In this document: positions 1-31,290 of the stretch, in pieces
Position numbering within the stretch: the first letter of the stretch is position 1
Layout: each line of letters opens with the position of its first letter
Translations under genes and position numbers: made by a program
The notes under the pieces: generated by a model
What the model was told of the DNA's origin: nothing
What the model saw: the letters and a program-made list of their open reading frames with translations, nothing else
Database searches by the model: none
From: a virus
Virus record (IMG/VR): IMGVR_UViG_3300005537_000051
Span: 1-31,290 of that record
DNA length: 31,290 nucleotides
Strand: one strand, 5' to 3'

Positions 1-2
1 CG

Positions 3-113
3 GCCAGTGCCTTGTCTGCCGGGCTTACCGAGCTTTCGGGCGCGCAGGCGCAATACCGTTCGGCCTTTGCGTCGGAGCTTGCATCCAATCCGAATTTGGG
101 CGCGAATATCTAA
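3..113 (+). CDS. C-terminal end of an unknown protein (5' truncated by window edge)
   Basis: One frame is open from the window edge to a TAA at 111-113 and encodes 36 residues ending NPNLGANI. The piece is rich in alanine, serine, leucine and glutamine with few charged residues, like the C-terminus of a helical structural or membrane-associated protein. The base composition matches the genes that follow and it lies on the same strand, which supports it being real, but the fragment is too short to assign. A competing 67-residue reading in another frame is rich in Arg, Pro and Cys and looks like a shadow. After the stop, an inverted repeat (AGCGCC, 3-nt loop, GGCGCT, 140-154) without a T-tract lies before the next gene. 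Confidence 0.5.
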   Translation, partial: ASALSAGLTELSGAQAQYRSAFASELASNPNLGANI

Positions 114-157
114 GGGCCAAAAATCCTGCCGGAAAAGGCAGCGCCTTCGGCGCTTGC

Positions 158-346
158 TTGAAACCGGCGAAAGGCGGCCTTGTGGTAAAGGTTGCCAATA
201 CATCGGCTAAGATTTCCAATCCCGCGCCGGTTGGTTTACAATCCGGCCAGTGGGAGCGGAAGTGCCCCAACTGCAACGCGGCACTTAAGAAAGCGGGCCG
301 GACGGTTGAGCCGGTTACGTGCCAATGCGGTTGGATATGGCGCTAA
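158..346 (+). CDS. Small zinc-ribbon-like protein
   Basis: This encodes about 62 residues if it starts at the TTG at 158, or 54 if it starts at the GTG at 182; the latter has a purine-rich AAAGGCGG stretch about 5 nt upstream and is a reasonable alternative. The C-terminal half has a CPNC pair and, some 16 residues later, a CQCGW pair, a pattern expected for a single zinc-binding ribbon. The C-terminus is Trp-Ile-Trp-Arg. Short zinc-ribbon proteins are common in phages upstream of terminase genes and are often thought to bind DNA or RNA, but no specific role can be read here. The gene is co-directional with its neighbours and followed by a small membrane protein gene after about 50 bases. Confidence 0.55.
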   Translation: MKPAKGGLVVKVANTSAKISNPAPVGLQSGQWERKCPNCNAALKKAGRTVEPVTCQCGWIWR

Positions 347-398
347 CCCGTCACAGCGTAACGGTAAATTTTGGTCCTGTGAATCCAAGGAGGACGGC

Positions 399-728
399 AT
401 GGCAGCTATCGTAATCGTTGGGGGCGTGATTTCGGCTATCGTGGCAGTGGTTGCATACCTCGACCGGAAATCACTTAAAGCAAAGCTGGGCGCAGCCGAG
501 CTGAGGCTTTCGGCAACGGTAAAGCATGACGCCAGCGGGGTTATTGCGGCGGTAGAGGCGCGGGAACGTCTTGTGCGCGCCGAGGCCGTGGCGTACTTTC
601 GTGGAGCGATAATCGCGGCGGAACAGGAAGCCGAAAAGGTTAAGGCGGATTCCAAAGCCGACGTGCTCAAAGTTATCGGCATAATCAAAGCCGGGCTGGA
701 ACGTTTCGGCGGCGTGGTAAGGTCGTAA
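399..728 (+). CDS. Small membrane-anchored helical protein (unknown function)
   Basis: This encodes a 109-residue protein. The ATG at 399 is chosen because a strong ribosome-binding site (AAGGAGGAC) lies just upstream; longer in-frame readings begin without one. Residues 2-23 form one hydrophobic segment (AAIVIVGGVISAIVAVVAYL), followed by a positively charged patch and a long Ala/Glu/Lys-rich helix that could form a coiled coil. The layout, one N-terminal membrane segment plus a charged helix, resembles small phage inner-membrane proteins such as spanin or holin-associated components, but there is no diagnostic motif. It lies directly upstream of the small terminase gene. Function is unknown. 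Confidence 0.7.
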   Translation: MAAIVIVGGVISAIVAVVAYLDRKSLKAKLGAAELRLSATVKHDASGVIAAVEARERLVRAEAVAYFRGAIIAAEQEAEKVKADSKADVLKVIGIIKAGLERFGGVVRS

Positions 729-742
729 ATCCGGCACGCCGG
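726..742. repeat. Copy 1 of a stop-codon-associated palindromic element
   Basis: The sequence TAAATCCGGCACGCCGG begins with the stop codon of the preceding gene and has one near-copy elsewhere, at 12228-12244, which differs at a single base and likewise starts at a stop codon. The core CCGGCACGCCGG is nearly palindromic. Confidence 0.5.
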
Positions 743-754
743 TTTTAGCGTGCC
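733..754 (+). promoter_or_regulatory. Hairpin just upstream of the small terminase ribosome-binding site
   Basis: A perfect 7-bp stem, GGCACGC (733-739) with GCGTGCC (748-754), encloses an 8-nt loop. The terminase small-subunit ribosome-binding site (AAAGG) follows within 2-6 nt. There is no T-tract on the + strand, so this is more likely an RNA-processing, mRNA-stability or translation element than a terminator. The role is inferred only. Confidence 0.45.
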
Positions 755-766: not shown

Positions 767-1381
767 ATGGCTGGGCGCAGACCACTGCCGACGGCAATCA
801 AAGTCTTAACGGGCAATCCGGGGCACAGGCCGTTGAACGAAGACGAGCCCAAGCCTGCAATTGAAATGCCCGAAATGCCAAAGTCGCTTTCGCGCGCCGC
901 GCGCCGTGAGTGGCACTACATTACATGGGCACTGCTTAAGATTGGCTTGCTATCCGGGATGGATGGCAAAGCGCTGGCTGCGTACTGTGAGGCTTACGCC
1001 GAATGGGAGCAGGCAAGCCGCGATGTGCGCAAGTATGGCCAGCTAATTGAAGAGCCGGTTGTGGATAAGCTGGGCCACGCGGTTATGCTCGAAACTATGG
1101 GCGGTACGGAATCCGCGCCACTGCTTGTAATGAAACCGCTTGTACGTTTGAAAGAAAACCCGGCAGTGCGTACCCGGAATAATGCGGCCAAGACTATGAA
1201 GGCGTTTCTGACTGAATTCGGGCTTACGCCAGCCAGCCGCGCGAAACTCAAGATTGGTAAGAAAAACGACGAGGACCCCGGCGAAGATTTTTTCAACCGG
1301 GAACGTAAGATTGCAAAAACCGGCCCGCTGCTGGTACCGCAAGGCTCCCGTCACACAGAAGCCGTAATTTTTAGCACGTAA
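767..1381 (+). CDS. terS: Terminase small subunit (P27 family)
   Basis: This encodes a 204-residue protein that resembles the P27 family of phage terminase small subunits: the N-terminal GRRPLPTAIKVLTGNPGHRPLN, the helical PKSLSRAARREWHYI region, and a C-terminal RTRNNAAKTMKAFLTEFGLTPASRAKL segment all fit. Small terminase subunits form rings that recognise phage DNA and bring it to the large subunit for cutting and packaging. Position supports the call, since the large terminase gene is the next gene. An AAAGG lies 6 nt before the ATG. The region around residues 94-125 (DKLGHAVMLETMGGTESAPL) is slightly longer than in compact P27 proteins. Confidence 0.9.
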   Translation: MAGRRPLPTAIKVLTGNPGHRPLNEDEPKPAIEMPEMPKSLSRAARREWHYITWALLKIGLLSGMDGKALAAYCEAYAEWEQASRDVRKYGQLIEEPVVDKLGHAVMLETMGGTESAPLLVMKPLVRLKENPAVRTRNNAAKTMKAFLTEFGLTPASRAKLKIGKKNDEDPGEDFFNRERKIAKTGPLLVPQGSRHTEAVIFST

Positions 1382-1571: not shown

Positions 1572-3431
1572 ATGTCGAAGAAAAAACTGGCAGTTTGGAC
1601 CCCCCAGCCAAAGGCGCTGGAAACGGCCCTAAAGTACGCTAAAGACGTGGATTCCGGCGCTATAGTAGCCGGTAAGTACGTTAAACTAGCGGCGAAACGA
1701 TTTATTGACGATTTGGAGCGCGCGCACTTGCGCGGCATCTTTTTTGACGAAGAAGATGCGCAGCACGCGGTAGATTTTTTCGGATATCTGCGCCACAGTA
1801 AAGGCGAATGGGGCAAGGGCGGCGGCCAGCCTTTCATTTTGGAGCCGTGGCAAGTATTCGTTATTGCGAATTTGTTTGGCTGGAAGATGGGGCGCGAGGA
1901 AAATCCGGAAGCGCCCGGCGAATGGATTTACGGCCCGCGCAGATTCATTGAAGGCTACGTTGAGGTGGCGCGGAAAAACGGAAAGTCGACGCTAGAAGCT
2001 GGCGTTGGCCTGTACATGCTAGTGGGCGATGGCGAGCCCGGCGCTGAAATTTATAGCGCGGCTACCACTAAGGACCAAGCCAAGATTATTTTTGATGAAG
2101 CGGACCGCATGGTGACGAAGTCACCAAAGCTAAAGTCCCTCATTCAACAATCGGCGCGTGCGGAAAAGTACCGCACGAATATGAGCGTGCTGGCAACGGC
2201 AAGTAAGTTTGAGCCGCTATCCAGTGAAGACGATACGCTTGATGGATTGAATATCCACTGCGCGCTTGTTGATGAATTGCACGCGCATCCGGACCGTAAG
2301 CTGTATGACGTGCTGCACGAAGCCACAATGGCGCGGCGGCAAGCCCTTGTGCTGGCGATTACAACGGCGGGTTACAACCGGCAGGGTATCGGGTACGCCC
2401 AGCACTTGCGTTGCGAAAGAATTCTTGAGGGCGTTACAGGATTTGAAAACGGCGACAGGCTGTTTGCTTTTATCGCCGCCGTTGACCAAGGCGACCGTTG
2501 GGATGACGAAAAGGTTTGGATTAAAGCGAATCCTAACCTTGGCGTTTCCGTAAGCCTTGATAAGCTGCGCGCAAAGTGTTCTGCCGCTAAAGAAGATGCA
2601 ACGGCAGTAAACAGTTTTCTTTGCAAGCATCTTAACCGCTGGACCAGTCAGGAAGTACGCGCAATCAACCCGGAAAAGTGGGCGTTGTGCTGCACGGCTG
2701 GAAAGCATGCGGACCCGAAAGCGCTTAGGGAACAGGCGATTATTGCGCTACGCGGGCGCGTGTGCATGGGCGCGCTAGACCTTTCGTCCAAGATTGACTT
2801 GTCGTGCTTTTTGCTTTTGTTTCCGCCTGTACCGCCGCGCACGATGCGCGATGGCGACGGTAAGCTGGTCGATATTCCGGGCGACCCGCTGTATCGAATT
2901 CTGCCGTGGTTTTGGGTACCGGAAGATAACGTGCAAGAGCGCGTTAGCAAAGACCGCGTGGAATATGACGTATGGGTCCGCGAGGGCTTCCTGCAAACCA
3001 CGCCGGGCAACGTTGTAGACCAAGATTTTATTCGCGCTGAAATTCTTAAGGCGCGGGCGTACTTTCGGATTGCTGAAGTGGGTTTCGATTCATGGAACAA
3101 CACGCAGCTTTCTTTGCAGCTTAAGCAATCCGGCATGACGATGGTTGACGTGCGGCAGGGATTCCGCACACTTAGCGAGCCGTTCAAAGAAGTGCTGGCG
3201 CTGATTCTTAGCGCACGCTTCGAGCACTACAACAATCCCGTGCTGCGTTGGAATATGAACAACTTGGCGTCGACCCAAGACCCGGCTGGCAATATCAAGC
3301 CGGATAAGGATAAGTCGAAAGAAAAGATTGACGGCGCGGTTGCGCTGATTATGGCCATGAGTAGATTCGTGGCCAACCCAACCGTGCCGAATACAAACGA
3401 CCCGAATCGGGGCACGATTCGCTTTGTTTAG
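1572..3431 (+). CDS. terL: Terminase large subunit (ATPase and nuclease)
   Basis: This encodes a 619-residue DNA-packaging motor of the Terminase_1/HK97-like type. The adenine-binding LEPWQ is at residues 90-94, the Walker A-like loop ARKNGKST at 133-140, the Walker B ALVDEL at 231-236 with acidic pair D234/E235, and the coupling motif AITTAG at 262-267. In the C-terminal RNase H-fold nuclease, candidate metal-binding acids are D403 (GALDLSSK), D506 (VGFDSWNN) and D587 (KIDGAVALI). The protein docks on the portal, translocates DNA into the prohead with ATP and cuts the concatemer. Length is near the upper end for the family. The ATG at 1572 follows a weak GAGAATGCGTAA leader; there is no strong ribosome-binding site. 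Confidence 0.96.
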   Translation: MSKKKLAVWTPQPKALETALKYAKDVDSGAIVAGKYVKLAAKRFIDDLERAHLRGIFFDEEDAQHAVDFFGYLRHSKGEWGKGGGQPFILEPWQVFVIANLFGWKMGREENPEAPGEWIYGPRRFIEGYVEVARKNGKSTLEAGVGLYMLVGDGEPGAEIYSAATTKDQAKIIFDEADRMVTKSPKLKSLIQQSARAEKYRTNMSVLATASKFEPLSSEDDTLDGLNIHCALVDELHAHPDRKLYDVLHEATMARRQALVLAITTAGYNRQGIGYAQHLRCERILEGVTGFENGDRLFAFIAAVDQGDRWDDEKVWIKANPNLGVSVSLDKLRAKCSAAKEDATAVNSFLCKHLNRWTSQEVRAINPEKWALCCTAGKHADPKALREQAIIALRGRVCMGALDLSSKIDLSCFLLLFPPVPPRTMRDGDGKLVDIPGDPLYRILPWFWVPEDNVQERVSKDRVEYDVWVREGFLQTTPGNVVDQDFIRAEILKARAYFRIAEVGFDSWNNTQLSLQLKQSGMTMVDVRQGFRTLSEPFKEVLALILSARFEHYNNPVLRWNMNNLASTQDPAGNIKPDKDKSKEKIDGAVALIMAMSRFVANPTVPNTNDPNRGTIRFV

Positions 3432-3458: not shown

Positions 3459-5600
3459 ATGGCGAGCCGCGCAAAAATAGCTGACCGAATGCTTAGCCGC
3501 ATGGGGCTTGAGCGGAGAACCGTTCTAACTCAAGCGATACGCGAAATCCGGTCCAGCCTTGAAAATCCGCAAACCCCACTAAGCTATCCGGCTGAGTGGT
3601 TGCTGGACCTTTTCAACGGCGGACGCACAAATTCTGGAATTCGCATCAGCGAAATGACAGCGCTGCAAGTAAGCACAGTGCTGGCTTGCGTCAACATTAT
3701 TTCAAACGGGATTTCTTCGCTGCCGCTGCATGTTTTTGAGCGCATGTTTATAAATGATAGGCCGGGCAAGAAGCTCGCCTACAATCACACGCTGTACGAC
3801 TTTCTGCACAGCGAGCCAAACGCGGAAATGTCCAGCCCCACGTGGCGCAAAACAATGTCCGTCCACGACCTGTTGTGGGGCAACGCGTATTCTGAGATTC
3901 AGCGCAGCAAGTCCGATAATTCGATTACTGCGATATGGCCACGCAACCCGGCGCGCACGCGCCCGGTACGCTTGACAAAGCCCGCAAAGATTGAGGGCGA
4001 CCTGCTTCCAATCGGCACGTTGGTTTATGAAACCAACGAAACGATGGGGGATTCGCCAGTGCACTTTACAGATTCCTTGGATGAAAGCAGCCCGATGCGC
4101 CGCATTGTGCTGGCCGAGGATATGCTGCACGTGCCGGGGCTTTCGCTTGACGGCCGGTTGGGGCAAGGGATTGTTTATCTGGCGCGCGAAGTTATGGGCT
4201 TGGCGCTGGCCACAGAAAAGTACGGCGGCAAGTTTTTTGGTAATGGCGCGCGCCCGGCTGGGATATTGACGCTGCCCGGCACGATGGATGACGTGGCACT
4301 GGAAAATGCCCGGCGCTCGTGGACTGAGGCTTACGGCGGCGAAAACGCGCACAGAACAGCAATTCTTGAGCCCGGCATGAAGTATGAAAAGGTCGGGGCC
4401 AGTCCTAACGAAGCGCAGTTTCTTGAAACGCGCAAGTATCAGCGCAACGATATTGCCGCGATATTCAACGTGCCGCCGCACATGATTGGCGACCTTGAAA
4501 AATCGGCGCGCAGCAACATTGAACAGTCCGCGATTGAATTTGTTTTGTTTACGCTTACGCCGTGGTTGACGCTGTATGAAGCGGAATTCGAGCGCAAGCT
4601 GTTTCCAAAGCAAGGCCGTAGCGCCAACAAGTTTTTCCCGATGTTCGATACGCGCCGGTTGCTGTATCCAGATTCGGAATCGCGCTCAAAGTTTTACGCA
4701 GCCGGTAAGCAGTGGGGATTCCTCAACACGAATGACATTCGTGAAATGGAAAACCTAAACCCGGTTACGGATGGTAGCGGCGAAGTTTTTTGGATGCCAT
4801 TCAACATGCAGGATTCCGCATTGCTGGCCAAGCAGTCTGCACATGCGCAGAAAGCGCTTAAGGCTGGCGACCAAGAAGCGGTACTGCCGGGTATGCAGAA
4901 AACCGAACCACAGCTACCCACGCCGCCCGCTGCCCCGCAATTGCCAGCGCCAAAAGGTAACAAGCCCGCTAAGAAGCGGTCTGCTGACGGCGCAGAAGAA
5001 AATGTATTGTATGGCATGCGCCACGGGGAAACAGAACTTAATCGTGACAACAAGTACCGTGGCTGGTCTACAACGCCGCTTTCTGAAGAAGGAAAGAAAG
5101 CCATTGTTAAGGCTGCCCAAGTTATCAAGGATAAGGGCATCACACGGATTGTATCTAGTGACCTTGTACGCGCGCGCGAATCAGCCGCTATTATCGCTGT
5201 TGAATTAGGCATAACGGATATTCAATTTTTGTCCGGCCTGCGCACGTGGAATCTTGGCGACTTTACCGGCAAGGATAAGGACGCGTATTCGGATAAGGTC
5301 CAGCACTACATTGACAATCCGGATGAAGTAGTGCCGGGCGGGGAAAGCCTTAACGATTTTCAGGCGCGGTCACGTAAAGCAGTTGAGCTGATACATCAGC
5401 TAAATGGTACGACGGGGCCAATCCTGATTGTGGCCAGTCTATCCAACTTTGCCGCGCAGGATGAGGATACAGGAAAGCATCTTGCATCCAAGAAGGAATT
5501 GATTAGACCGGGCGGCCTTGTAATCGTGGATTTTGAAGCGCACACGGTAACGCCGATTTATGGCGGCCCGACAACTGGCGCAGATGCGTCGGGGTCATAA
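3459..5600 (+). CDS. HK97-family portal protein fused to a histidine-phosphatase-like domain
   Basis: This encodes 713 residues. Residues about 1-460 are a typical HK97 portal: TVLACVNIISNGISSLPLHVF near the N-terminus, HDLLWGNAYSEI, LHVPGLSLDG and ARSNIEQSAIEFVLFTL. A Pro/Ala/Lys-rich linker (about 485-515) leads to a histidine phosphatase (phosphoglycerate-mutase-like) domain: RHG at 521-523, then GWSTTPLSEEG, SSDLVRARESA and GGESLNDFQ (E629). The second catalytic histidine, expected in a V-T/S-H-G-like strand, is replaced: the matching strand reads ILIVASLSNF with serine at about 660. So the domain may bind phosphorylated ligands without normal catalysis. Portal proteins form the dodecameric DNA gateway of the capsid. 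The start has no strong ribosome-binding site. The next gene starts 2 nt after the stop. Confidence 0.93.
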   Translation: MASRAKIADRMLSRMGLERRTVLTQAIREIRSSLENPQTPLSYPAEWLLDLFNGGRTNSGIRISEMTALQVSTVLACVNIISNGISSLPLHVFERMFINDRPGKKLAYNHTLYDFLHSEPNAEMSSPTWRKTMSVHDLLWGNAYSEIQRSKSDNSITAIWPRNPARTRPVRLTKPAKIEGDLLPIGTLVYETNETMGDSPVHFTDSLDESSPMRRIVLAEDMLHVPGLSLDGRLGQGIVYLAREVMGLALATEKYGGKFFGNGARPAGILTLPGTMDDVALENARRSWTEAYGGENAHRTAILEPGMKYEKVGASPNEAQFLETRKYQRNDIAAIFNVPPHMIGDLEKSARSNIEQSAIEFVLFTLTPWLTLYEAEFERKLFPKQGRSANKFFPMFDTRRLLYPDSESRSKFYAAGKQWGFLNTNDIREMENLNPVTDGSGEVFWMPFNMQDSALLAKQSAHAQKALKAGDQEAVLPGMQKTEPQLPTPPAAPQLPAPKGNKPAKKRSADGAEENVLYGMRHGETELNRDNKYRGWSTTPLSEEGKKAIVKAAQVIKDKGITRIVSSDLVRARESAAIIAVELGITDIQFLSGLRTWNLGDFTGKDKDAYSDKVQHYIDNPDEVVPGGESLNDFQARSRKAVELIHQLNGTTGPILIVASLSNFAAQDEDTGKHLASKKELIRPGGLVIVDFEAHTVTPIYGGPTTGADASGS

Positions 5601-5601
5601 C

Positions 5602-7341
5602 ATGCCATACGCTAATGTGAGTGAAGTGCCGGATTACGTTCCAAAGAAAAAGCGCAAGCAGTGGCTTGAAATCTGGAACAAGGTTTACAAGGAAAAGATT
5701 GACGCCGGGGAAAGCAAAGAGGCCGCCGAGAAATCGGCGTACGCCCAAGCAACCGGCGTAGCTAATAAGGAAAGCAAGGGGGCCGTTATGGACCGGGAAG
5801 TACGCTTTGTTTCTGGCGAACTACGCGCAACGCTGGGTGCGGCAAAGGACGAGGTTGGTATCGCGCCGCTGATGCTGGAAGGCTATGCGGCTACGTTTAA
5901 CAGCCTTAGCCACGACCTTAACGGATTCCGCGAAAAGATTATGCCCGGCGCGTTTTCCCGCACGCTTAAGGAAAACGCTGACGTGCGCGCGTTGAAAAAT
6001 CACGACCCAAACTTTGTGCTGGGCCGTAGTAAATCTGGCACGTTGAAACTTGAACAGGATTCGCGCGGCCTGCGCTTTCAGGTTGAGTTGCCGAATACGC
6101 AGTACGCAAAGGACCTGCACGAATCAATCAAGCGCGGCGATATGGACCAGTGCAGCTTTGCTTTCAAAGCTGTTGGGCAAAAGTGGAGTGAGGAACAGGA
6201 CGGGAACGGCGATTGGTACGCCATGCGCGAATTGCATGACGTTGACCTGTTCGATGTTAGCGCCGTAACATACCCGGCCTATGAGGACACGTCAATTGCT
6301 GCACGAGGTGATATTGTGCCTGCCGAAATCCGCAGTAGCATTGCTGCAAAGAAAACCGGGGCTGCCCCGGAAGTTCGCGACGAGGACTGCGCTTACGAGG
6401 ATTTGATTTCCGAAGTGTGCAGCGCCCTTGCGGAAAAATTCCCCTCAACTTATGGGGATGGCGCGGCCACGCCGTACAACAATGGCAAGTATTACGTGAT
6501 TGAAACCCACGACAATTACGTTATCGTTTGCGATTGGCAAGCGCAGGAATACTACAAGATTTCTTACGTGGAAGATGCGGCTGCCGAAAGCTATACGTTT
6601 GGCACGCCCCAGCCGGTAGAAAAGGCTTGGGTCCCAGCCGAAAGGGCCGTCAAGCGTTTTGCAGAGTTGCGCAAGAGCTACATGGACATGCTTGCCGATA
6701 AGCACATGGCCTCAGCGCTGGAAACCTACGCTGCCGCCGCTGCGCTGAAAAAGAATGCAGATGATGACGCGGCTGCTGCCACTGCTTTGCAGGCAAAGGC
6801 TGACGCCGCCCGGCTTGCGGATTTTACCGATGACCCGGATGACGGCGATTCGGAAAATGAAGGGCCGTGGCAAAATCGGATTGTTGACGAACAAGATGTT
6901 TGGGACGAAACCCAACAGGACGATACCGACGGCGCAAACGATAACGGCGATGACGATGACCGAAAGGTTAAGCGTGCGGCTGCCCGTAAAGCGGCTGGCG
7001 TTGAAACCCGCGCCGACGGCAAGGTACGCACAAAGCGTGTTGGCGGAAAGAATTTGACCAAGGATAAATTCGCTTACGTGGGCGACCCGGAGCGTACGGA
7101 AACTTGGAAGTTGCCGATTCATGATGCAGCGCACGTGCGCAATGCCCTTGCACGCTTCAACCAAACGCAGGGTATCCCGTCGGGAAAACGCGCGGGCGTG
7201 TACCGCAAGATTGTTGCGGCTGCGAAGAAATTCGGCATTGAGGTTTCGGCTGAGGAAAACAGCCGGGCATTGGCAACGTGCGATGCCGATGAATCCGAAG
7301 TGCTTTTGCTGCGCGCTACATTGCAGCGGGCAAGCTGGTAA
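5602..7341 (+). CDS. Multi-domain HK97-family prohead protease with ChaB-like and DUF6582-like ends
   Basis: The ATG at 5602 (579 residues) is preferred over an in-frame one at 5560 because it starts just after the portal stop and begins a recognisable domain. Residues 1-55 are ChaB-like (VPDYVPKKKRKQWLEIWNKVY). Residues about 60-240 are a prohead protease with ALKNHDPNFVLGRSKSGTL (catalytic-type H134), MDQCSFAF (S185) and FDVSAVTYPAYEDTSIAA. A helical, Ala-rich part and a very acidic stretch follow, then a C-terminal region (about 495-570: FAYVGDPERTETWKLPI, RNALARFNQTQGIP, AAAKKFGIEV) that resembles DUF6582. The protease trims capsid protein N-termini during head maturation; the long helical/acidic part could act as scaffold. 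The family core is normally only about 180-250 residues, so this is a large fusion. Confidence 0.9.
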   Translation: MPYANVSEVPDYVPKKKRKQWLEIWNKVYKEKIDAGESKEAAEKSAYAQATGVANKESKGAVMDREVRFVSGELRATLGAAKDEVGIAPLMLEGYAATFNSLSHDLNGFREKIMPGAFSRTLKENADVRALKNHDPNFVLGRSKSGTLKLEQDSRGLRFQVELPNTQYAKDLHESIKRGDMDQCSFAFKAVGQKWSEEQDGNGDWYAMRELHDVDLFDVSAVTYPAYEDTSIAARGDIVPAEIRSSIAAKKTGAAPEVRDEDCAYEDLISEVCSALAEKFPSTYGDGAATPYNNGKYYVIETHDNYVIVCDWQAQEYYKISYVEDAAAESYTFGTPQPVEKAWVPAERAVKRFAELRKSYMDMLADKHMASALETYAAAAALKKNADDDAAAATALQAKADAARLADFTDDPDDGDSENEGPWQNRIVDEQDVWDETQQDDTDGANDNGDDDDRKVKRAAARKAAGVETRADGKVRTKRVGGKNLTKDKFAYVGDPERTETWKLPIHDAAHVRNALARFNQTQGIPSGKRAGVYRKIVAAAKKFGIEVSAEENSRALATCDADESEVLLLRATLQRASW

Positions 7342-7350: not shown

Positions 7351-8493
7351 ATGAGCGTAAAGATTAGTCCCGCAATGACTGAATTGCGGGAAGCGATACA
7401 GGCAGCGGAAACGCTAGCCGCTAAGGACGTCCTCACGAAAGCTGAGGAAGCCCGAATCAACGTACTGCTGGCAAAGATTGCAGCGCTGCGCCAGAATCCT
7501 GCCGGGCCGGACACGCGCGAACTGCGCAAGCGATTTTGGCGTGCAATGGAAGCCGGGCGTGAACTGCGCGGCGATTTGCTGGCCGGTACCCAATCAATTT
7601 CTTACACGCAGGGCGCAAGTGGCGGCTTTGCCGTACCGCAAGAATTTGCGGACGAAATTCTGATTGGCGCTGCACAGGTTGACCCTTTGCTGGACAAGAA
7701 TGTCGTTGGTCTTACAAAAAGCAAAGGCTTTTCGCTTAACCCTTATCCTGTGCCCGCTTGGGATTTGTCGCAGTTTGCTGCTTCGCGCCAAGGTGAGGCG
7801 CAGCAGCACTTGTCCGATACTGTGCCCCCTGCCGCAACCCGGCAGCTAGAGGGCTACACGTACGCGGCATCACTTGGGGCTAGCTTCGAGCTCGAGGACG
7901 ACCATTTCGATGACCTGATGGACCAGATTCAAACCGCTTTTTCTATCGGATTCGCGCGCGGTATCGGCGTGGATTTGGTAGGAGGCACAGGCGTTGGCCA
8001 GCCGTCGGGCTTGATTACCGGCGCGCACAACAGCGGCGTTACCACAGCCATACAGGCGCAGATTACGTTTCAGGACGTAACTGCAATTTACAACAGCGTC
8101 AACCGGATTTACCGTACCTCGAAAAAGTGCGCGTGGGTTATGAGCGATACCACGTATCAGCACGTGCGCAACGCTGTGGATAACGCAGGCCGCCCCTTGC
8201 TTGATATGCGCAAGGATAAGGAGGAATTGCTCAGCAAGCCTGTGCTGATTTCCCCCAGCATGCCTTCGAATTCTGGCACTAAGGGCATTATCTTTGGTGA
8301 CCTTTCGTATTACAGGGTCCGCGTATCGGGTATGTGGATTCAGCGCAACGTCGAAACGCCGGGCTACGTGGAAAATGGCAAGGCGCTTTATACGGCGCGT
8401 ATGCGCGCAGACGGGGCCGTGGTTGACCCAACGGCGAATAATTCCTCGCCGCTTGTATCGGCAAGCCCGATTGTGTACGCAACACTGAAGTAA
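7351..8493 (+). CDS. Major capsid protein 1 (HK97 fold)
   Basis: This encodes 380 residues. The N-terminal 70 or so are a charged helical delta-type domain that would act as internal scaffold and be removed by the protease. The junction motif AGTQSISYTQGASGGFAVP (78-96) is typical of HK97-family capsid proteins where the mature shell domain begins. Further hallmarks are VDLVGGTGVGQPSGLI, the WVMSDTTYQHVRNAVDNAGRPLL segment and IIFGDLSYYRVRVSGMWIQR near the end. The ATG follows a strong TAAGGAG. A second, different capsid gene follows, so this protein may form the hexamers or be a minor shell component. Which of the two dominates in virions cannot be told. Confidence 0.92.
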   Translation: MSVKISPAMTELREAIQAAETLAAKDVLTKAEEARINVLLAKIAALRQNPAGPDTRELRKRFWRAMEAGRELRGDLLAGTQSISYTQGASGGFAVPQEFADEILIGAAQVDPLLDKNVVGLTKSKGFSLNPYPVPAWDLSQFAASRQGEAQQHLSDTVPPAATRQLEGYTYAASLGASFELEDDHFDDLMDQIQTAFSIGFARGIGVDLVGGTGVGQPSGLITGAHNSGVTTAIQAQITFQDVTAIYNSVNRIYRTSKKCAWVMSDTTYQHVRNAVDNAGRPLLDMRKDKEELLSKPVLISPSMPSNSGTKGIIFGDLSYYRVRVSGMWIQRNVETPGYVENGKALYTARMRADGAVVDPTANNSSPLVSASPIVYATLK

Positions 8494-9978: not shown

Positions 9979-9981
9979 GTT

Positions 9982-18255: not shown

Positions 18256-18258
18256 CGC

Positions 18259-19215: not shown

Positions 19216-19216
19216 A

Positions 19217-19651
19217 ATGACGAAGCGAGCTGACATTATCGCGTGCGCGCGTACCTATCTTGGGACGCCGTTTCAGCATCAAGGACGCCTTAAGGGGCGC
19301 GGCCTTGACTGCATTGGCCTTGTCATCTGCGTAGCAAAAGAGCTTGGGCTGGCTGTGCCGAATTACGCGAATTACGGCCCAGAGCCAACGGATGACACTG
19401 TGCGTCGTGAATGCCGCAAGCACTTGCGCGAAATATCCGCATCGCAAATGCGCCCCGGAGATATTGTTTGCATGGACGTTGGCGGTAGAAGCTCTATGCC
19501 ATCACACTTGGCTGTTGTTTCGGAGCTACCCCCGTCTATCGGAATGATTCACGCTTATTCATGGGCCGGTAAAGTTGTTGAGCACGATATGGACAGCGCG
19601 TGGGTAAATCGTATTGCTGCCGTCTTTCAGTTCCCGGACATTGAGGATTAA
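19217..19651 (+). CDS. NlpC/P60-type tail-tip cell-wall peptidase (GTA gp14-like)
   Basis: This encodes 144 residues from the ATG at 19217; a longer in-frame reading would overlap the hub gene by 59 bases. The catalytic cysteine lies in GRGLDCIGL (C32), the histidine in SHLAVV (H97) and a third polar residue in HAYSWAG (H112), the papain-like triad of NlpC/P60 peptidases. YLGTPFQHQGR just before the cysteine is also typical. The enzyme cuts peptide stems of the host cell wall from the tail tip so DNA can enter. Its TAA is directly followed by the next ATG. Confidence 0.9.
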   Translation: MTKRADIIACARTYLGTPFQHQGRLKGRGLDCIGLVICVAKELGLAVPNYANYGPEPTDDTVRRECRKHLREISASQMRPGDIVCMDVGGRSSMPSHLAVVSELPPSIGMIHAYSWAGKVVEHDMDSAWVNRIAAVFQFPDIED

Positions 19652-22600: not shown

Positions 22601-22906
22601 GCGCGTGACCAGAGCGGAAACCTCACAGTTAGCTGGATTAGGCGTACGCGTATCGGCGGCGACTGGCTTGCGGGAATCGGTACCGTGCAGCTTGGTGAGA
22701 CCACGGAATCGTACGATATTGACATACTGACCGGTCCTAATGGTACAGTAGTGAGGACGTTTTCGGCCCAGCCCACGCCAGCATTGGCGTATTCGGCTGC
22801 GCAGCAAACCACGGATTTTGGCGGCCCACAGGTTGCGATTTCCATGAACATTTATCAGAATTCGAGCATTATCGGACGCGGATTCGTTAAGAGTGTGACC
22901 CTGTAA
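19652..22906 (+). CDS. Large tail-tip hub/fibre protein (GTA gp15-like) with beta-rich insertions
   Basis: This encodes 1084 residues. The N-terminal Gly-rich, hydrophobic stretch (FAIAGAVVGSFFGPLGTQIG) and the following IPFGYNQQRIAGNIIW are typical of the megatron-type tail-tip protein gp15 of GTA. The core (about 590-740: REVAVLFQDKNLDYQQNKTH, ARQIAEKAVYIAYLERHPYD, DVIQFTYEGLNFVARIVRSD) is the hub platform. Two segments look inserted: about 150-215, and a larger one at about 283-500 with NTWVKITSLVNPGNQWTNLW and SITAHIGSGISNGAALQVFE, Gly/Ser/Thr-rich beta structure resembling surface adhesion domains. These are the best candidates for receptor contact. The protein ends 39 nt before the next ATG. 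Confidence 0.87.
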   Translation: MARLGFAIAGAVVGSFFGPLGTQIGFAVGGLVGSMLFPAKLPSGPRLNDLIISTATDGAPIPFGYNQQRIAGNIIWAPPIVETTQTTSAKGGPKQTNYVYTANFAVAFCEGPASIGRIWFDSKVVYDSRATLQNPGHTPPIYAFSAPITGSSAIGNQIQVASTLQPPAGTEVTISGAPQGNGTFQVIATAPTQFSYYNPNGVAPGSSGTAAMPPIKYPAPVIYPGTEAQTADPTIQGAVGAANCSAFRGLCYAVWTNFPLNDFGNRIPNVRAEVNFSTPLPVGVRLVQEAGNTQDQNISPNISVGMTNTQGNFLFAVHLQDTSSSTSTIGDILGNTWVKITSLVNPGNQWTNLWYCASCKGGTNSITAHIGSGISNGAALQVFEFSGVNASNPLGPTGFGGVSSVNGNNTTPSITTNAPSQFVIAGYSAEGAAIPYTAGTGWTAGGFNQGVVNHTIGITGTQFLEFQTVPNSGTAISGSATSSAGANVGIYTIALNSASTAFTTSPTLANIVSDICLRSGLLATDIDVTQLALLPGSSPAVPVPAPGGYTISRPTTAQNALKPLAEAFFFDAVESGGVIRFVPRGNLPITAVTIPETDLGLVKDNFKLAEQLQMAQELPREVAVLFQDKNLDYQQNKTHKRRATRIVKTKNQTVYELAMVLDPNTARQIAEKAVYIAYLERHPYDFNLWRPLYMLFDPTDVIQFTYEGLNFVARIVRSDIGVDFSSALSLVSEDTATYQSTIQGSSGTGVTPAQAKVLPDTTLFLFDVPLMQDTDSNPGGTGKYFAMSSLDPTHWPGGSLQKSSDNVNFAQENTSVKAAHYGAATTVLPPPPTRGALGGVSPWVWDTVSTLTVFMQNGVLTGTADISVLNGQNALLVGSPTNGWELIQYGNSVQNADGSFTISRFLRGRRGTESQCALHGPGEFVIDVIAAGVVRQPNATSDLQVLRYYNAVTSGNTLNPAQSQTLNLRGLDVFPYAVTSVAGARDQSGNLTVSWIRRTRIGGDWLAGIGTVQLGETTESYDIDILTGPNGTVVRTFSAQPTPALAYSAAQQTTDFGGPQVAISMNIYQNSSIIGRGFVKSVTL

Positions 22907-22945: not shown

Positions 22946-23536
22946 ATGGCAACTCCAAATCTAGCGCTTGTGCATATTGCGGCGGCACAAAATCAAAAAG
23001 AAGTAACAGCCAACACGGCCTTTGATGGGCTGGATGTTGCGCTTACAAATTGGATTCAGGAAGTGGTTGGCGACCAGCATTTCACACTGCCGCTAGCTGA
23101 TGCGCTGGGCAACATGGTTTTCTATTTCGTTGGCCTGTTAACCGCGCCGCGCGGCGTTACGCTGCCCGCCACACGAAAGCTGTACATTGTTCAGAACGGC
23201 ACAGGCGGCGGCGGCAGTCCGGCAGGGCAGGGATTCTCGCTTACCTTTGGCACGGCGTCATCCCCAAGCGGGCGCATTGCAAGCGTGGAATCAAACAACA
23301 CAGAGTACGCCATTCTGTATTGCGACGGCGTAAACGTGGACCGCTTGACGGCCGAACCTGAATTACAAAATTTCTATGTTTCAACGCTGCCGAATAATCC
23401 GCGCTCCGGCACAGTTGTTTTCTGCTTGGATGGCCGAAAGGTTGGCGAAGGGCCGGGCGCTGGCACGGGCGTACCTGTGTATTGGTCCGCTGGTAGGTGG
23501 CGTGTATTTTCGACTGACATTCCTGTGCAGGCGTAA
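22946..23536 (+). CDS. Tail fibre-base protein (DUF2793-like)
   Basis: This encodes 196 residues. NLALVHIAAAQNQKEVTANT then AFDGLDVAL resembles the start of DUF2793 fibre proteins, which normally read pro-x-Q-x-Q-K-E-V-T-x-N-x-A. The C-terminus SGTVVFCLDGRKVGEGPGAG then GVPVYWSAGRWRVFST is the usual beta-rich ending with a Tyr/Trp cluster. Such proteins sit at the tail tip and carry or form short fibres. CCGAGG lies a few nt before the ATG. Its TAA overlaps the next ATG (TAATG), linking it to the glycosyltransferase that follows. Confidence 0.75.
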   Translation: MATPNLALVHIAAAQNQKEVTANTAFDGLDVALTNWIQEVVGDQHFTLPLADALGNMVFYFVGLLTAPRGVTLPATRKLYIVQNGTGGGGSPAGQGFSLTFGTASSPSGRIASVESNNTEYAILYCDGVNVDRLTAEPELQNFYVSTLPNNPRSGTVVFCLDGRKVGEGPGAGTGVPVYWSAGRWRVFSTDIPVQA

Positions 23537-24237
23537 TGCACCCGCTAATCGCGGTTATCACGTGCGGCAAATTCCGTGAGCGCGCCTACGCGCAGCGGCG
23601 CACGTGGGTAAAGGATGCCCACGGATTTGACGTACGCTTCTTTCTAGGGCAAGGTAATGAGGCCGCGTACGACGATGAAGTGCTGCTGGATTGCCCGGAC
23701 GATTACAAAAGCCTGCGTTTGAAAACGCAGCTTATGTTTCGTTGGGCTGCCGACGCCGGGTATCAACAGATTCTTAAAACGGATGACGATGTTCTGGTCA
23801 TTCCAGAAAGATTGCGCCATGCGTTTTGCGGCGATGATTACCGGGGCCGCGTACGTGGGCCAAGCCAAGAGAATGACGCGCCGCGTATTTACGGCGCTAA
23901 GGAAACGCACTTTTGTAGCGGCTTTGGCTATATCCTCAGCCAGCGCGCCGCCCGAATCGTTGCCGAAGCGCCAGATAACGGCGATTGGGCTGAAGATAGA
24001 TTTGCAGGCAACGCGCTTGTGCGCGCGGGAATCGTGCCGGTACACGACATTAGATTCCTGCTGTGGCCCCCGCTAGGCGGCCACGCGTGCGGCGTGCCAA
24101 ACGTTAACTGTGGAGCATGCCGGGCGCAGTATGCGTACGCCGCTGTTATCTGCCCGTATGCAAGGCCGAATGTGCCGGAAATTCTGTATGGCTTCTATAA
24201 GAATCACGGCGGGTTTATTCCGACATGGCTTCAGTAG
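23536..24237 (+). CDS. GT31-like (galactosyltransferase family) glycosyltransferase
   Basis: This encodes 233 residues. AYAQRRTWVKDAHGFDVRFF then LGQ (17-39), DDYKSLRLKTQLMFRWA (55-71), the metal-binding triple aspartate in ILKTDDDVLVIP (DDD 83-85), HFCSGFGYILS (125-135) and WAEDRFAGNAL (151-161, acidic pair ED 153-154) follow the order of motifs in the beta-1,3-galactosyltransferase (GT31) superfamily. The expected role is transfer of a sugar from a nucleotide sugar to an acceptor, which could be a host glycan (receptor masking), phage DNA bases or virion protein; the sequence does not say which. The gene overlaps both neighbours by 1 and 13 bases. Confidence 0.8.
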   Translation: MHPLIAVITCGKFRERAYAQRRTWVKDAHGFDVRFFLGQGNEAAYDDEVLLDCPDDYKSLRLKTQLMFRWAADAGYQQILKTDDDVLVIPERLRHAFCGDDYRGRVRGPSQENDAPRIYGAKETHFCSGFGYILSQRAARIVAEAPDNGDWAEDRFAGNALVRAGIVPVHDIRFLLWPPLGGHACGVPNVNCGACRAQYAYAAVICPYARPNVPEILYGFYKNHGGFIPTWLQ

Positions 24238-24755
24238 GCTGCATTTACTTTTATCCAGCCGGTTACGTTGGCTCAACCGTGAATCTGGAACAGCGGCACA
24301 AAGGCCATTTGCGGAAGCATCCTACATGGTCAAAGCCTGTTGTACTTGAGCGTTGCGCCAAAGAAGATTTGTTATTTCAAGAAGTTATTTGGATGTTCAA
24401 GCTGCATACGTATCAACGGATTTGGCCGCAAGGTCTCAACAAAGTAATTCCGTTTACGAATGACTACCGCCAGTACGTTACGCAAGAAAATTGCGCACGT
24501 GGCGGTAGAAAGGGCGGCGGTAAGCACGAAATGTCGGCAGCCGCAAAAGCCCGGCAGCTTGCGGCCTGTGTACGTGCAGGTCAAAATGGCGGCGGCAAGC
24601 ACACGATGTCAGAGGAAGCAAAAGAACGCCAACGCGCAGGCGTGCGTGAAGCTAATAAGCTAAGGAAAGGCGCTAGCTTTACAGAATCGCATCGCAAGAA
24701 TTTAAGCGCCGCAATTTCCCTAAGTTGGCAGGTAAGGAAAGCAGCATGCTTGTAA
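24225..24755 (+). CDS. GIY-YIG homing-type endonuclease with NUMOD3 motifs
   Basis: This encodes 176 residues. The N-terminal GCIYFYPAGYVGSTVNLEQR then HKGHL is a GIY-YIG nuclease core (Y8, Y14, R24 region), with a candidate catalytic glutamate in LLFQEVIWMFKL. The C-terminus holds repeated Gly/Lys-rich motifs with M-S-x-x-A-K-x-R (GGGKHEMSAAAKARQLAA; GGGKHTMSEEAKERQRAG; then FTESHRKNLSAAIS), the NUMOD3 DNA-binding motif of homing enzymes. Start and end overlap the flanking glycosyltransferase genes by 13 and 10 bases, so it is fully woven into the operon. Confidence 0.88.
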   Translation: MASVGCIYFYPAGYVGSTVNLEQRHKGHLRKHPTWSKPVVLERCAKEDLLFQEVIWMFKLHTYQRIWPQGLNKVIPFTNDYRQYVTQENCARGGRKGGGKHEMSAAAKARQLAACVRAGQNGGGKHTMSEEAKERQRAGVREANKLRKGASFTESHRKNLSAAISLSWQVRKAACL

Positions 24756-25423
24756 GCGCTGTTGTTCCTACCACCGAAGAGCGCCGTAGCTATCTAGACA
24801 CAACATTGCAGTGCTTTGCAGCGCAAACGTTTAAGGATTCTGAACTTTTTATTTTGGAGGAAGCTGCTGCGCCGCTGGAACGGTCTTGGCCTGAACGTGT
24901 TAGATATGAGTGGATGCCCCGCGCAGGCTTGAATGCTGGGCAAAAGCGAAACCTCATAAACAGCAAGGCCGAAAGTCAGATTATTATACATTTTGATTCG
25001 GACGACTGGTATCATCCGGCACGAATTGCCACGCAGGTTAAGCACCTTGCTGAAAGTGGCAAGCAGGTTGTTGGCTATCACGACTTGCTTTATTTTCGGG
25101 CAACCGACAGCAGCTTTTGGCAGTATCGCTTTACAGGCAGGCCGCCATACGCGCCGGGCACAAGCATGTGCTATTACCGGGCGTGGTGGGAATTCAATCG
25201 CTTTAGCGCGCTGACGGTTGGCGAAGATTCTTTCTTTTCCGCATACGCCGCGCGCATGGGCGCACTAGCCTCGCTGCCGCTAAGCAACTTGATTGTGGCT
25301 GTTGCGCACGACCGCAACACGTTTAAGATTCCGTTTGGCAACGCGCCGTTTCTTTCAGCCACGCGCGATATGTTTCCGCAAGAATTTTTAACCGTCACAG
25401 AGGGCGGGGATTTCAGCAACTAG
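24746..25423 (+). CDS. Family 2 (GT-A) glycosyltransferase
   Basis: This encodes 225 residues from the ATG at 24746, which has TAAGGA 8-13 nt upstream; an in-frame ATG at 24725 lies further inside the endonuclease gene. LVSAVVPTTEERRSYLDTTL then QCFAAQTF is the typical nucleotide-binding start, LNAGQKRNLI and IIIHFDSDDWYHPARI (DSDD 84-87) give the D-x-D metal site, and EDSFFSAYAARMG is the usual downstream acidic segment. It probably acts with the GT31-like enzyme on the same glycan. The acceptor is unknown. It ends 11 nt before the next gene. Confidence 0.86.
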   Translation: MLVSAVVPTTEERRSYLDTTLQCFAAQTFKDSELFILEEAAAPLERSWPERVRYEWMPRAGLNAGQKRNLINSKAESQIIIHFDSDDWYHPARIATQVKHLAESGKQVVGYHDLLYFRATDSSFWQYRFTGRPPYAPGTSMCYYRAWWEFNRFSALTVGEDSFFSAYAARMGALASLPLSNLIVAVAHDRNTFKIPFGNAPFLSATRDMFPQEFLTVTEGGDFSN

Positions 25424-25813: not shown

Positions 25814-26347
25814 ATGCCGCCACAAAGAATAGTCGGATTGGATTTGAGCCTAGTGGCTACCGGCTATTACGTTGTGGACGCGGGCGTGGAAAAAGGCGGA
25901 CTGATTGCGCCGGGCAAGCTATCTGGCGTGCGCCGCCTAGACCATATCCTTACCGCCGTACGTGCCTTACTTGTTGCCCCATACGAAACACTCGCCGTAG
26001 TTGAAGACTTTTCCTTTGGTAGTAAAGGCCAAGCCGTATTTCAAATTGCGGGCCTTGGCTATCTTGTGCGGCACTTCCTTTGGCAGTCCAAAATTCCTAC
26101 GCTGCTTGTGCCGCCTGCGCTGCTGAAAAAGTATGTTACTGGCAGCGGCAACGCTGATAAGACCGTAATGCTGAAAGAAATTTACAAACGCTGGGGCGCT
26201 GATATCAACGACGATAATGTCGGTGACGCCTACGCGTTGGCCCGTATTGGCACGGCGCACGTAGTTGGCGCAACCGGGCTTACTGCTTTTCAGGTCGACG
26301 TGCTTAAGAAAGTACGCGAACTGAATTCCACAGGAGACCTGCCATGA
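25814..26347 (+). CDS. RuvC-like Holliday-junction resolvase
   Basis: This encodes 177 residues with an RNase H-like fold signature: VGLDLSLVATGYYVVD (D10), AVVEDFSFG (E64) and DDNVGDAYALARIG (D134, D138), with the NADKTVMLKEIYKRWG helix region between. These acids fit the RuvC catalytic set. In phages such enzymes trim branched DNA before packaging. The gene is isolated from replication genes here, sitting among accessory genes. Its stop overlaps the start of the protease gene (ATGA). Confidence 0.85.
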   Translation: MPPQRIVGLDLSLVATGYYVVDAGVEKGGLIAPGKLSGVRRLDHILTAVRALLVAPYETLAVVEDFSFGSKGQAVFQIAGLGYLVRHFLWQSKIPTLLVPPALLKKYVTGSGNADKTVMLKEIYKRWGADINDDNVGDAYALARIGTAHVVGATGLTAFQVDVLKKVRELNSTGDLP

Positions 26348-28617: not shown

Positions 28618-30336
28618 ATGTCCACGCCTCTAAGCAAGCACGAATCCGAATTGCTTCAGAAAGCCACAGACTACGTAAAGGAAACAATCAAAGAAAAACA
28701 AAAGCTTCCGTCCCGCTGGGACCTACGCTGCCATCTTGAATGCAAAGAGGAAAGTGCGGGCCGCCTCCTACACCACATCATCGACAGCGGCCTAGTTGAA
28801 TTGCCGCCCGCTGAATCCGTGCCAGTAATCCCGCCGCCCGCTGAGCGAGAATCCGATGCGATTGATAAGGAAAAGCGTGTAATAACGCTGCCGAAAACAC
28901 GCATCCACACGCTTGAGGCGCTGATTGCTTTTTTTGAAATCGACGAAACGGTTTGGAAATGTGAGCGTTTCATCGCTAATAAGTGGGAGGTTGCGGCGAT
29001 ACCGCGTGCAATTTCCTCCCAAGAACGAAACAAAAAGGGCAACCGCGTTTGGGAACGCGAAAGCACAACGCCTATTGTTGAACCGCTTTATCAGGTTAAG
29101 GCGTATTTCAAACGCAACTATACGCAGACCGAAGCTGACGTGCTGGCTGATGAAAATGCCACGCTGCTACGGCAGGTTGCCAAGCTACGCCTAGACGTGG
29201 GCGTACAAAAGCGATATTCAAAGCGGCTGGCTGTGGGCCACGCTGGCTACGATGATTTGCTGACCGACGTAAAGCAGTTTGTTTCCACACTGGAAGGCAC
29301 GCTGGGCGGCTTTTCATTACCCACAGAGCATGTGGCGGCGGCCAACCCGGCAAGCGTGCCGCCTGTGCGCGAGGGCCACAGCGAAGATGCCGTGCTGCTG
29401 CTTTCTGATACGCACTTTGGCGACGTGATTCGCCGTGAGGATACAAGCGGATTCCCTGAATTCGACCTTGTAATCGCCGGGAATCGCTTTGGCTATGTGA
29501 TTCGCAAGGCAAAGCAATGTCTTTCCCTGCACCGCGCCATGTACCCGATTAAGCGGCTGTACGTGTGGTTGGGCGGCGATATCGGCAACGGCGTGCTGCA
29601 CGATTCCCCCAACAGCAACGCTTTGTTTCCCCCGGCGCAGGTCCATTTCAGCTACAACATGCTCAAGTTTGCGCTGGATGACCTGCTAACACTTACCGAG
29701 CCGGACGCTACCGGCAACCGCGTCATTGAGGAAATCGTCCTGCTTTGCACTGTGGGCAATCACATGCGAATGGACGAAAAGATGCCGCACAAGTACCAAG
29801 CGCAGCGTACGCTTGATTGGCTTATCTATCAGTCGATTATCGAGCGGTACAGCACACACCCGAAAGTGAAAGTACGCGCGGAAATGTCGCCGTACATTTT
29901 TGAAACAATCCGCAACCACCGCTATCTGTTTGCCCACGGCATGCAGGTTGGCTACCGCAACAGCCCGGATGCGCAGTGTAAGTCAATGAATTCCTTCATC
30001 GACAAAGTGCGCGCCCTGTTTGATTCGCCGGAATGGCGGCGCAGCAACGGCTTACAAGGAGAAACATTCGCGCGAATCTGCATCGGGGATATCCACGTCC
30101 CGGTACAGTTTCCGCGCCTGATTTCCAACGGCAGCCTTAACGGCCAAAATGAGCTGGGGGTAAACTGGACAATGGAGCCTATCCCTGCCGGGCAGCAGCT
30201 ATTTGGCGTGGCTGACAACCACATCCAAACGTGGAATTACTTCTTAAGCTGCTCACACGTGCAGCGCCGGGCCGAGGATTTCAATAGCTACGGCGTGTTT
30301 GCTGCCGAATATGCCAAGCGGATTGGCCGCTGCTAG
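28618..30336 (+). CDS. Calcineurin-like metallophosphoesterase with N-terminal helix-turn-helix-like domain
   Basis: This encodes 572 residues. Residues about 10-60 (KLPSRWDLRCHLECKEESAG then RLLHHIIDSGLVELP) look like a winged helix or HTH domain. A middle domain has HTLEALIAFFEIDETVWKCE then PLYQVKAYFKRNY, a coiled coil follows, and the C-terminal half is a metallophosphoesterase: SDTHFGD (D264, H266), GGDIGN (D321), GNHM (N381, H382), AHGMQ (H440) and GDIHVP (H493). Related domain combinations occur in other phages. The enzyme may cut phosphodiester bonds in nucleic acid or nucleotides; its substrate is not evident. AAAAAGGAAACC precedes the ATG. Confidence 0.86.
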   Translation: MSTPLSKHESELLQKATDYVKETIKEKQKLPSRWDLRCHLECKEESAGRLLHHIIDSGLVELPPAESVPVIPPPAERESDAIDKEKRVITLPKTRIHTLEALIAFFEIDETVWKCERFIANKWEVAAIPRAISSQERNKKGNRVWERESTTPIVEPLYQVKAYFKRNYTQTEADVLADENATLLRQVAKLRLDVGVQKRYSKRLAVGHAGYDDLLTDVKQFVSTLEGTLGGFSLPTEHVAAANPASVPPVREGHSEDAVLLLSDTHFGDVIRREDTSGFPEFDLVIAGNRFGYVIRKAKQCLSLHRAMYPIKRLYVWLGGDIGNGVLHDSPNSNALFPPAQVHFSYNMLKFALDDLLTLTEPDATGNRVIEEIVLLCTVGNHMRMDEKMPHKYQAQRTLDWLIYQSIIERYSTHPKVKVRAEMSPYIFETIRNHRYLFAHGMQVGYRNSPDAQCKSMNSFIDKVRALFDSPEWRRSNGLQGETFARICIGDIHVPVQFPRLISNGSLNGQNELGVNWTMEPIPAGQQLFGVADNHIQTWNYFLSCSHVQRRAEDFNSYGVFAAEYAKRIGRC

Positions 30337-30379
30337 AAAGCTTATCGCTGCGCCACGTTTGCTGCGTGAAGGGCAAGCC

Positions 30380-30511
30380 ATGTTAGACGGCACGCAGATT
30401 GTAACAAAGGCCAACAGCGGACTGGGGGCAGCGTCGGACGGCGCAAAACTATTTTTTGTGGCGCGGCTGCCCCACACTATTGACTCCGTAACAAGGACTA
30501 TGGTACTTTAG
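30380..30511 (+). CDS. Possible short protein between phosphoesterase and LAGLIDADG genes
   Basis: This encodes 43 residues from the ATG at 30380, with GAAGGG about 6 nt upstream. The sequence (MLDGTQIVTKANSGLGAASD then FFVARLPHTIDS) has no known motif. A longer in-frame reading from a TTG at 30299 overlaps the phosphoesterase gene. The stop (30509-30511) falls inside the hairpin that precedes the next gene, so ribosomes finishing here would melt it. It may be a real small gene or a leader peptide; evidence is weak. Confidence 0.4.
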   Translation: MLDGTQIVTKANSGLGAASDGAKLFFVARLPHTIDSVTRTMVL

Positions 30512-30518
30512 TACCACG
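30493..30518 (+). promoter_or_regulatory. Hairpin between ribosome-binding site and start codon of the LAGLIDADG gene
   Basis: AAGGA (30493-30497) is 21 nt from the ATG at 30519, too far for normal initiation. Between them TGGTAC (30501-30506) and GTACCA (30511-30516) form a perfect 6-bp stem with a TTTA loop. Folding removes 16 nt and leaves 5 nt of spacing, as described for some T4 genes (for example gene 25). Translation would then depend on the fold. Confidence 0.45.
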
Positions 30519-30959
30519 ATGGGACTGCCTAAAACAGCCGCAGCGTATTTGGCCGGAATTCTTGACGGTGAAGGTTGTGTCGCCGTAAGGAAATCCGGCT
30601 ACCTTCAGCGGCGCACAGGTAAACGTGTTTACTATCTTCATGCCAGCGTTGTAATCGTTAATACCTATCGACCTGTGTTGGCGCTATTCAGGAAATTTTT
30701 TGGCGGGCACCTACGACCGCGTACCAAAATCGCGGGCAGGCAGCAAACCTATTCACTGACGGTTGCCGATTTTAAGGCAGCCACGCTGCTTACTTCGCTT
30801 CTTCCCTACCTACGCATAAAGAAACGACAGGCCGTACTAACCCTACGCTGCCAGCAGATGAATACCCGCCGTGCAACCCAAAAAAGCAAAGTTGCTGTAC
30901 GCCGAAAACAGACTGAGCTTTTCTATGCCGTCAAGCGGTTAAAGAAGGGAAGAGTATGA
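30519..30959 (+). CDS. LAGLIDADG homing endonuclease
   Basis: This encodes 146 residues with one LAGLIDADG-type helix, AYLAGILDGEGCVAV (9-23; E18 is the metal-binding acid), and a second conserved element LLPYLRIKKRQAVLTL (about 99-114). One motif per chain means it should act as a homodimer on a near-palindromic site. A basic C-terminus (RRKQTELFYAVKRLKKGRV) may contact DNA. It is free-standing; no flanking intron is evident. The stop overlaps the ATG of the next gene (ATGA). Confidence 0.88.
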   Translation: MGLPKTAAAYLAGILDGEGCVAVRKSGYLQRRTGKRVYYLHASVVIVNTYRPVLALFRKFFGGHLRPRTKIAGRQQTYSLTVADFKAATLLTSLLPYLRIKKRQAVLTLRCQQMNTRRATQKSKVAVRRKQTELFYAVKRLKKGRV

Positions 30960-31290
30960 ACTTTTTGTCTTGGATTTATTGGGCACTCATTCTGCTATCG
31001 CAGAATTTTGCTTTTACGTATGTGTCGCGCGCGCGCAGCAGCGGCTCCCTCATTCGCCACTTAAAGGCTTCCATCTTTAGCAACGGCATCTGGATTTTCT
31101 CCCAAATGCTTATGCTAGGGCCGATGTTTGACTATCTTACCGGCAAGCACGGGCACGCCGCGCAAATCGGCGCAGGTACCGTGTACACGCTTTCCACCGT
31201 TACCGGCTCAATCCTTGCGCACTATTGGGCGCTGCGCACGGAAAAAGGAAAGAATGCGGTAGGGGCTAACAAGCGGTATGCGCAAATTCC
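30956..31290 (+). CDS. Multi-pass membrane protein (3' end beyond the window)
   Basis: An ATG at 30956 with GAAGGGAAGAG just upstream opens a frame that runs to the window end (111 complete codons). The product has hydrophobic segments around residues 2-22 (NFLSWIYWALILLSQNFAFT), 40-60 (SIFSNGIWIFSQMLMLGPMF) and 75-95 (IGAGTVYTLSTVTGSILAHY), then a basic tail with KNAVGANKRYA. Three membrane segments and small size fit a holin or similar phage membrane protein, but no family-specific motif is seen. The 4-base overlap (ATGA) with the endonuclease suggests coupled translation. Confidence 0.75.
   Translation, partial: MNFLSWIYWALILLSQNFAFTYVSRARSSGSLIRHLKASIFSNGIWIFSQMLMLGPMFDYLTGKHGHAAQIGAGTVYTLSTVTGSILAHYWALRTEKGKNAVGANKRYAQI

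Follow-up and report, generated by a model that had tools for sequence, protein, structure and literature searches.

Restriction sites, mostly those of orthodox Type II enzymes, have been found eliminated from roughly one in ten viral genomes (Rusinov et al. 2018, PMC6286503). The DNA analyzed here (the window, a complete IMG/VR virus record of 31,290 bases) resembles the dsDNA phages of that survey in that its palindromic Type II sites reach an observed/expected ratio below 0.1, which is the definition of elimination used there. However, those phages were matched to host enzymes, whereas the sites of the window are read from phage DNA alone, and in the window at least seven sites are eliminated together, with a status that changes between sister lineages. 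Phage phiX174 (PMC5014478) shares with the window a GATC count of zero, but it is a 5.4-kb genome with a Dam+ MutH+ host in which mismatch repair was tested, whereas the window is 31 kb of tailed-phage DNA from which several unrelated sites are also gone. The E. coli phages of the BASEL collection (PMC8594841) display the same two strategies that are considered below, site scarcity and DNA modification (including 7-deazaguanine); there, the strategies are traits of taxonomic groups, whereas here a single capsid clade contains close members of either GATC state. Finally, the 7-deazaguanine pathway protects phage DNA from restriction (Hutinet et al. 2019, PMC6884629), and one relative of the window, L114, likewise has neighboring dpdA-like, folE, queE-like, and queD genes, a putative modification cassette that belongs to the relative and not to the window. 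Site elimination by phages is already established; what is new is the multi-site fingerprint and its repeated switching, and the window is a new, extreme case of the known phenomenon in an uncultured phage family.

The window corresponds to the late module of an uncultured siphophage, which serves packaging, head, and tail; all called genes are on the + strand (Table 1). After the GTA-like tail tip come two glycosyltransferases, a RuvC-like resolvase, a trypsin-like protease, an exonuclease-like protein, and an HNH-type nuclease. Because early genes are missing, the record is most likely a fragment of a phage genome. Among 50,697 phage records, none closely matched the first 25 kb of the window at the DNA level. 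The two capsid-family genes adjoin each other, and counterparts of the first (41–46% identical) lie upstream of the capsid gene in L134, L135, L137, L139, L143, L144, L148, and L151. Domains related to the histidine phosphatase of the portal protein are also encoded within or close to the portal region in L107, L134, L137, L139, L145, and L150–L152. L114 has glycosyltransferase and sugar-nucleotide genes in a long operon-like series (L124 7557–19889), with four Galactosyl_T matches among them.

Table 1. Annotated features of the window and of the putative modification cassette in the record that holds L114
Feature	Coordinates	Strand	Matches
Terminase small subunit	767..1381	+	PF05119 8.7e-24, phrog_83
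Terminase large subunit	1572..3431	+	PF20441, PF03354; phrog_9 4.8e-168
Portal protein with C-terminal histidine-phosphatase domain (RHG at residue 521)	3459..5600	+	PF04860 9e-97, PF00300 1.2e-29
Prohead protease	5560..7341	+	PF04586
First capsid-family gene	7351..8493	+	PF05065 1.1e-34
Second capsid-family gene (query for family scan and tree)	8599..9978	+	PF05065 7e-42
Head-tail connector	10914..11822	+	PF05135
Tail tube protein	13442..13897	+	PF16461, PF06199
Tape measure protein	14783..17479	+	PF09718, phrog_8462
GTA-like distal tail module: DUF2460, Gp84-type hub, gene 19157-19651, tail protein	17479..22906	+	PF09343, PF09931, PF09356; PF13550, PF23666
Two glycosyltransferase genes (23536-24237, 24725-25423) with one gene in between	23536..25423	+	PF01762, PF00535
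RuvC-like resolvase	25814..26347	+	phrog_159 1e-33
Exonuclease-like protein	28618..30336	+	phrog_284
HNH-type nuclease (candidate solely for self-avoidance)	30519..30959	+	phrog_5046 2.9e-24
DpdA-like protein, L114 record	L123:14468-15970		phrog_887
FolE, L114 record	L123:16764-17339		
Radical-SAM QueE-like protein, L114 record	L123:17355-18149		
QueD, L114 record	L123:18422-18826		

The first-pass annotation of this DNA had claimed that GATC is wholly missing, and the count is indeed 0 in 31,290 bases; of the 256 tetramers, GATC alone is absent. Tetramer counts against Markov backgrounds placed this far below expectation (62 under an order-1 model, 102–106 under order 2, and 120 from base composition). 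When synonymous codons were shuffled 200 times with every protein and the codon usage preserved, the coding part contained a mean of 90.6 GATC (minimum 66) against none observed (z = −11), and GATC was the most depleted tetramer in this comparison. Avoidance had also been proposed to act at the codon level, which agrees with the codon choices found: Asp before a C-starting codon is written GAC in 87 of 87 cases (elsewhere, GAT 256 and GAC 181), ATC is never used for Ile when the preceding codon ends in G (0/150, vs 126/335 elsewhere), and NGA-TCN codon pairs number zero in the window. The tetramers GATA, GATT, AATC, and TATC, which substitute for GATC, are in excess. Other four-base palindromes are common, as had been noted, with GGCC, GTAC, GCGC, and CATG near expectation, AATT at 0.79, and TTAA at 0.90. 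TATA is low in the window (21 vs 55 expected). GAAC/GTTC stands at about half of expectation (126/238), with CGAACG at 1/25, and L114 is low in CGAACG (15/45) and GAACCA (6/44).

Observed and expected counts were compared for 613 restriction-enzyme sites and all short words, and GATC turned out to be one member of a multi-site set that the first reading of the sequence had not seen. CCWGG is absent from the window (50–63 expected, 40 after tetramer fitting), as are GCCGGC (26–45 expected), GGCGCC (26–38), CCGCGG (19–24), CAGCTG (9–23), CTGCAG (9–11), and, with weaker support, CCCGGG (8–9) and GGGCCC (8–11); the CYGCRG class is reduced to 4 occurrences against 59–68 expected. GATC, CCWGG, GCCGGC, GGCGCC, and CCGCGG are all eliminated in the sense applied here (observed/expected <0.1 with at least 15 expected sites). 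Avoidance was not seen for GGCC, CCGG, GCGC, and CGCG, which are normal or high, or for CCSGG (124/77 observed/expected), GANTC (108/66), and GAATTC (19/7). Non-palindromic neighbors of the lost hexamers persist or are enriched (GCCGGG, 79 vs 33–40 expected), and therefore the avoidance is specific to palindromes. For the same reason, namely the enrichment of non-palindromic intermediates such as GCCGGG, we consider it unlikely that one enzyme lies behind all the lost G/C hexamers. Fully absent words are Type II sites of the enzyme list or contain one, with the exception of GAGAG/CTCTC; this word has zero occurrences on both strands, which is near chance (3–6 expected). Several of the co-eliminated sites (CCWGG, GCCGGC, GGCGCC, CCGCGG, and CCCGGG) are presumably targets of Type IIE enzymes, which need two sites for cutting, and this may be a coincidence. 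One partial depletion lies outside what Type II restriction explains: the non-palindromic GGTG/CACC occurs 55 times against 171 expected, on both strands and in all flanking contexts, and is also low in L136 (8/27) and L140 (14/31) and normal in other relatives. The signal of the window is real and strong, and a multi-site restriction-avoidance fingerprint describes it better than the absence of GATC.

Relatives of the window were reached in IMG/VR by terminase and capsid scans; the capsid-protein scans yielded about 80, the closest of them syntenic with the window, while scans of the same database with tail proteins, the portal, and the hub retrieved none. The non-GATC part of the fingerprint is common to related phages. 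Eleven contigs totaling 115 kb (the window, L105, L134, L135, L136, L140, L146, L148, L181, L016, and L045) were selected for loss of CCWGG and three hexamers, and because the contigs were chosen on those sites, the pooled counts of CCWGG (1/208 observed/expected), GCCGGC (0/114), CCGCGG (0/77), and GGCGCC (1/76) describe the group and are no test of it. CCATGG (0/27), CCCGGG (0/30), GGGCCC (1/30), and CGGCCG (6/107, all six within the window) were not selection criteria and are also depleted in the pool, where GCGCGC (135/116) and CGCGCG (103/107) are untouched. In the set used for the tree, the three hexamers are missing from 8/8 CCWGG-free members and from 3/62 others (Fisher P = 2e-8, ignoring kinship), and L181, which belongs to the other major clade, carries the same lost-site set. 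GATC varies inside this group, being absent from the window, L105, L140, and L181, reduced in L134, L135, and L148, and near normal in L136 and L146.

The tree built from 75 capsid proteins requires a minimum of eight changes in GATC elimination and of six in CCWGG elimination, so that GATC status has repeatedly switched between close relatives. GATC is missing or nearly so (observed/expected) in L105 (0/20), L140 (0/12), L181 (0/36), L138 (3/53), L160 (0/65), L161 (0/41), L172 (1/49), L109 (0/68 across a 25-kb record), and L110 (3/125 across 31 kb), as well as in L016 and L045, which were found by terminase and have only about 4 sites expected each. It is normal in L107 (126/152), L112 (347/358), L114 (697/681), L163 (71/51), and most others. 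The sister pair L163 and L172 (SH-aLRT 98) has one GATC-normal and one GATC-poor member, and the GATC-rich L114 clusters with the GATC-poor L109 and L110 (support 96 in the capsid tree and 100 in the portal tree). At 44 places where L114, L107, and L112 use GATC to write an amino-acid pair that they share with the window, the window has GATC in none (0/44); at comparable shared sites for control words, it keeps GGCC in 16/40 and GCGC in 21/35. Avoided sites of their own were found in L109 (RGGNCCY, 0/20; CACGTG, 0/10) and L110 (CAGCTG, CTGCAG, AGCGCT, and AAGCTT, about 0/10 each).

We consider it probable, at roughly 0.87, that the window was purged of several orthodox Type II restriction sites through selection by host enzymes, since many palindromic Type II sites are lost at synonymous positions and their status switches between sister phages. 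Host Type II restriction systems met by the phage would have selected against GATC, CCWGG, and a set of 6-bp palindromes; the purging would have proceeded almost wholly via synonymous changes, and the resulting site-free DNA would be uncuttable by the matching enzyme. The partial depletion of GGTG/CACC counts against this reading. From these patterns we infer that restriction endonucleases are the agent, and any host carrying them is likewise deduced. The first-pass annotation had suggested restriction selection on GATC, which stands as the best-supported reading, although GATC is merely one member of the set.

Its alternative, Dam-type recognition, is weakened because CCWGG and the G/C hexamers vanish too. 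In this scenario, GATC would be lost through host methyl-directed mismatch repair or the action of Dam/MutH on phage DNA, a process considered for phiX174, which lacks GATC and whose mutation rate in E. coli is lowered by restored sites (PMC5014478). L109, L160, L161, and L172, which are without GATC and yet have CCWGG, would fit such a process; under it, CCWGG and the G/C hexamers would not be expected to disappear from the window, nor the other sites from L109 and L110. MutH-type repair is, moreover, limited to some gammaproteobacteria. We regard this explanation as very unlikely, and mismatch-repair avoidance can at most be a contributor. There is likewise only a very small chance that the selection on GATC came from a DpnI-like, modification-dependent enzyme that cuts methylated GATC where the host methylates phage DNA; GATC is reported to be under-represented in 46/46 phages of hosts that encode a Type IIM enzyme for GATC (Rusinov et al., PMC6286503), but such an enzyme covers GATC alone, and the remaining lost sites need conventional Type II enzymes regardless. 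A composition effect or an assembly or cloning artifact (for example, GATC-specific cutting before sequencing), for which we found no supporting point, has a negligible probability given the order-2 Markov and codon-shuffle controls, the loss of CCWGG and hexamers, and the origin of GATC-free relatives in several different metagenomes; syntenic relatives of similar G+C are normal, and as the depletion switches on and off among relatives of similar G+C, it is not a composition effect. Equally implausible is that the phage purged its own genome of sites at which its nucleases cut host DNA: the window encodes HNH-type and exonuclease-like proteins, but many different specificities would be required, nothing connects these proteins with any lost site, and close relatives differ in their avoided sets.

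Selection by host restriction enzymes raises the question of the host. The tail proteins of the window resemble those of alphaproteobacterial phages and of one Microcystis phage. Microcystis phage Mwe-JY26 is the best tail-protein match among cultured phages (38%), and because its GATC count is normal (202/196), it provides no host clue. The uptake words of Neisseria and Pasteurellaceae and the cyanobacterial HIP1 (GCGATCGC) are not enriched in the window. Capsid relatives occur in 10/398 genomes of one phylum, with normal GATC around the match in the eight examined, and offer no host clue.

DNA modification may offer a second route of protection. In the window, a fragment without early genes, searches with PF02086, PF01555, PF00145, PF01242, and phrog_887 revealed no DNA-modification gene; those with the first three agree with the earlier remark that no DNA methyltransferase is visible. 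In contrast, the 93-kb record holding L114, with GATC at full expectation, has neighboring genes for DpdA-like, FolE, QueE-like, and QueD proteins. QueF was not counted in L114, as its signal came from a weak secondary match of the FolE protein. The record of L112 encodes a D12-class adenine methyltransferase, and its C5-type match is below the cut-off. Modification genes over the cut-off, or the deazaguanine set, are present in 6/26 GATC-normal vs 0/10 GATC-free records, a contrast that is not significant (Fisher P = 0.16; 1.3 expected by length; the GATC-free records are short). A strict rule by which phages show either site loss or modification genes is thus not significantly supported, and several large GATC-normal records (L151, L171, and L137) show neither. 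The cassette in the GATC-rich L114 suggests DNA modification as a possible alternative strategy, which we treat only as a lead. It is quite unlikely that one phage family repeatedly alternates between site elimination and DNA modification and, at the same time, that the co-lost block (CCWGG and all hexamer palindromes made of G and C only that contain a GG or CC step) reflects one defense, either broad or tightly co-inherited, shared by the hosts of two distant clades of phages.

The sites that a phage has eliminated record, in readable form, the restriction enzymes that it meets, and they can therefore help predict the hosts of uncultured phages. The fingerprint is also useful for comparing anti-restriction strategies, and close sisters of unlike GATC status, of which one carries a deazaguanine cassette, constitute a natural experiment on the trade-off between site loss and modification.
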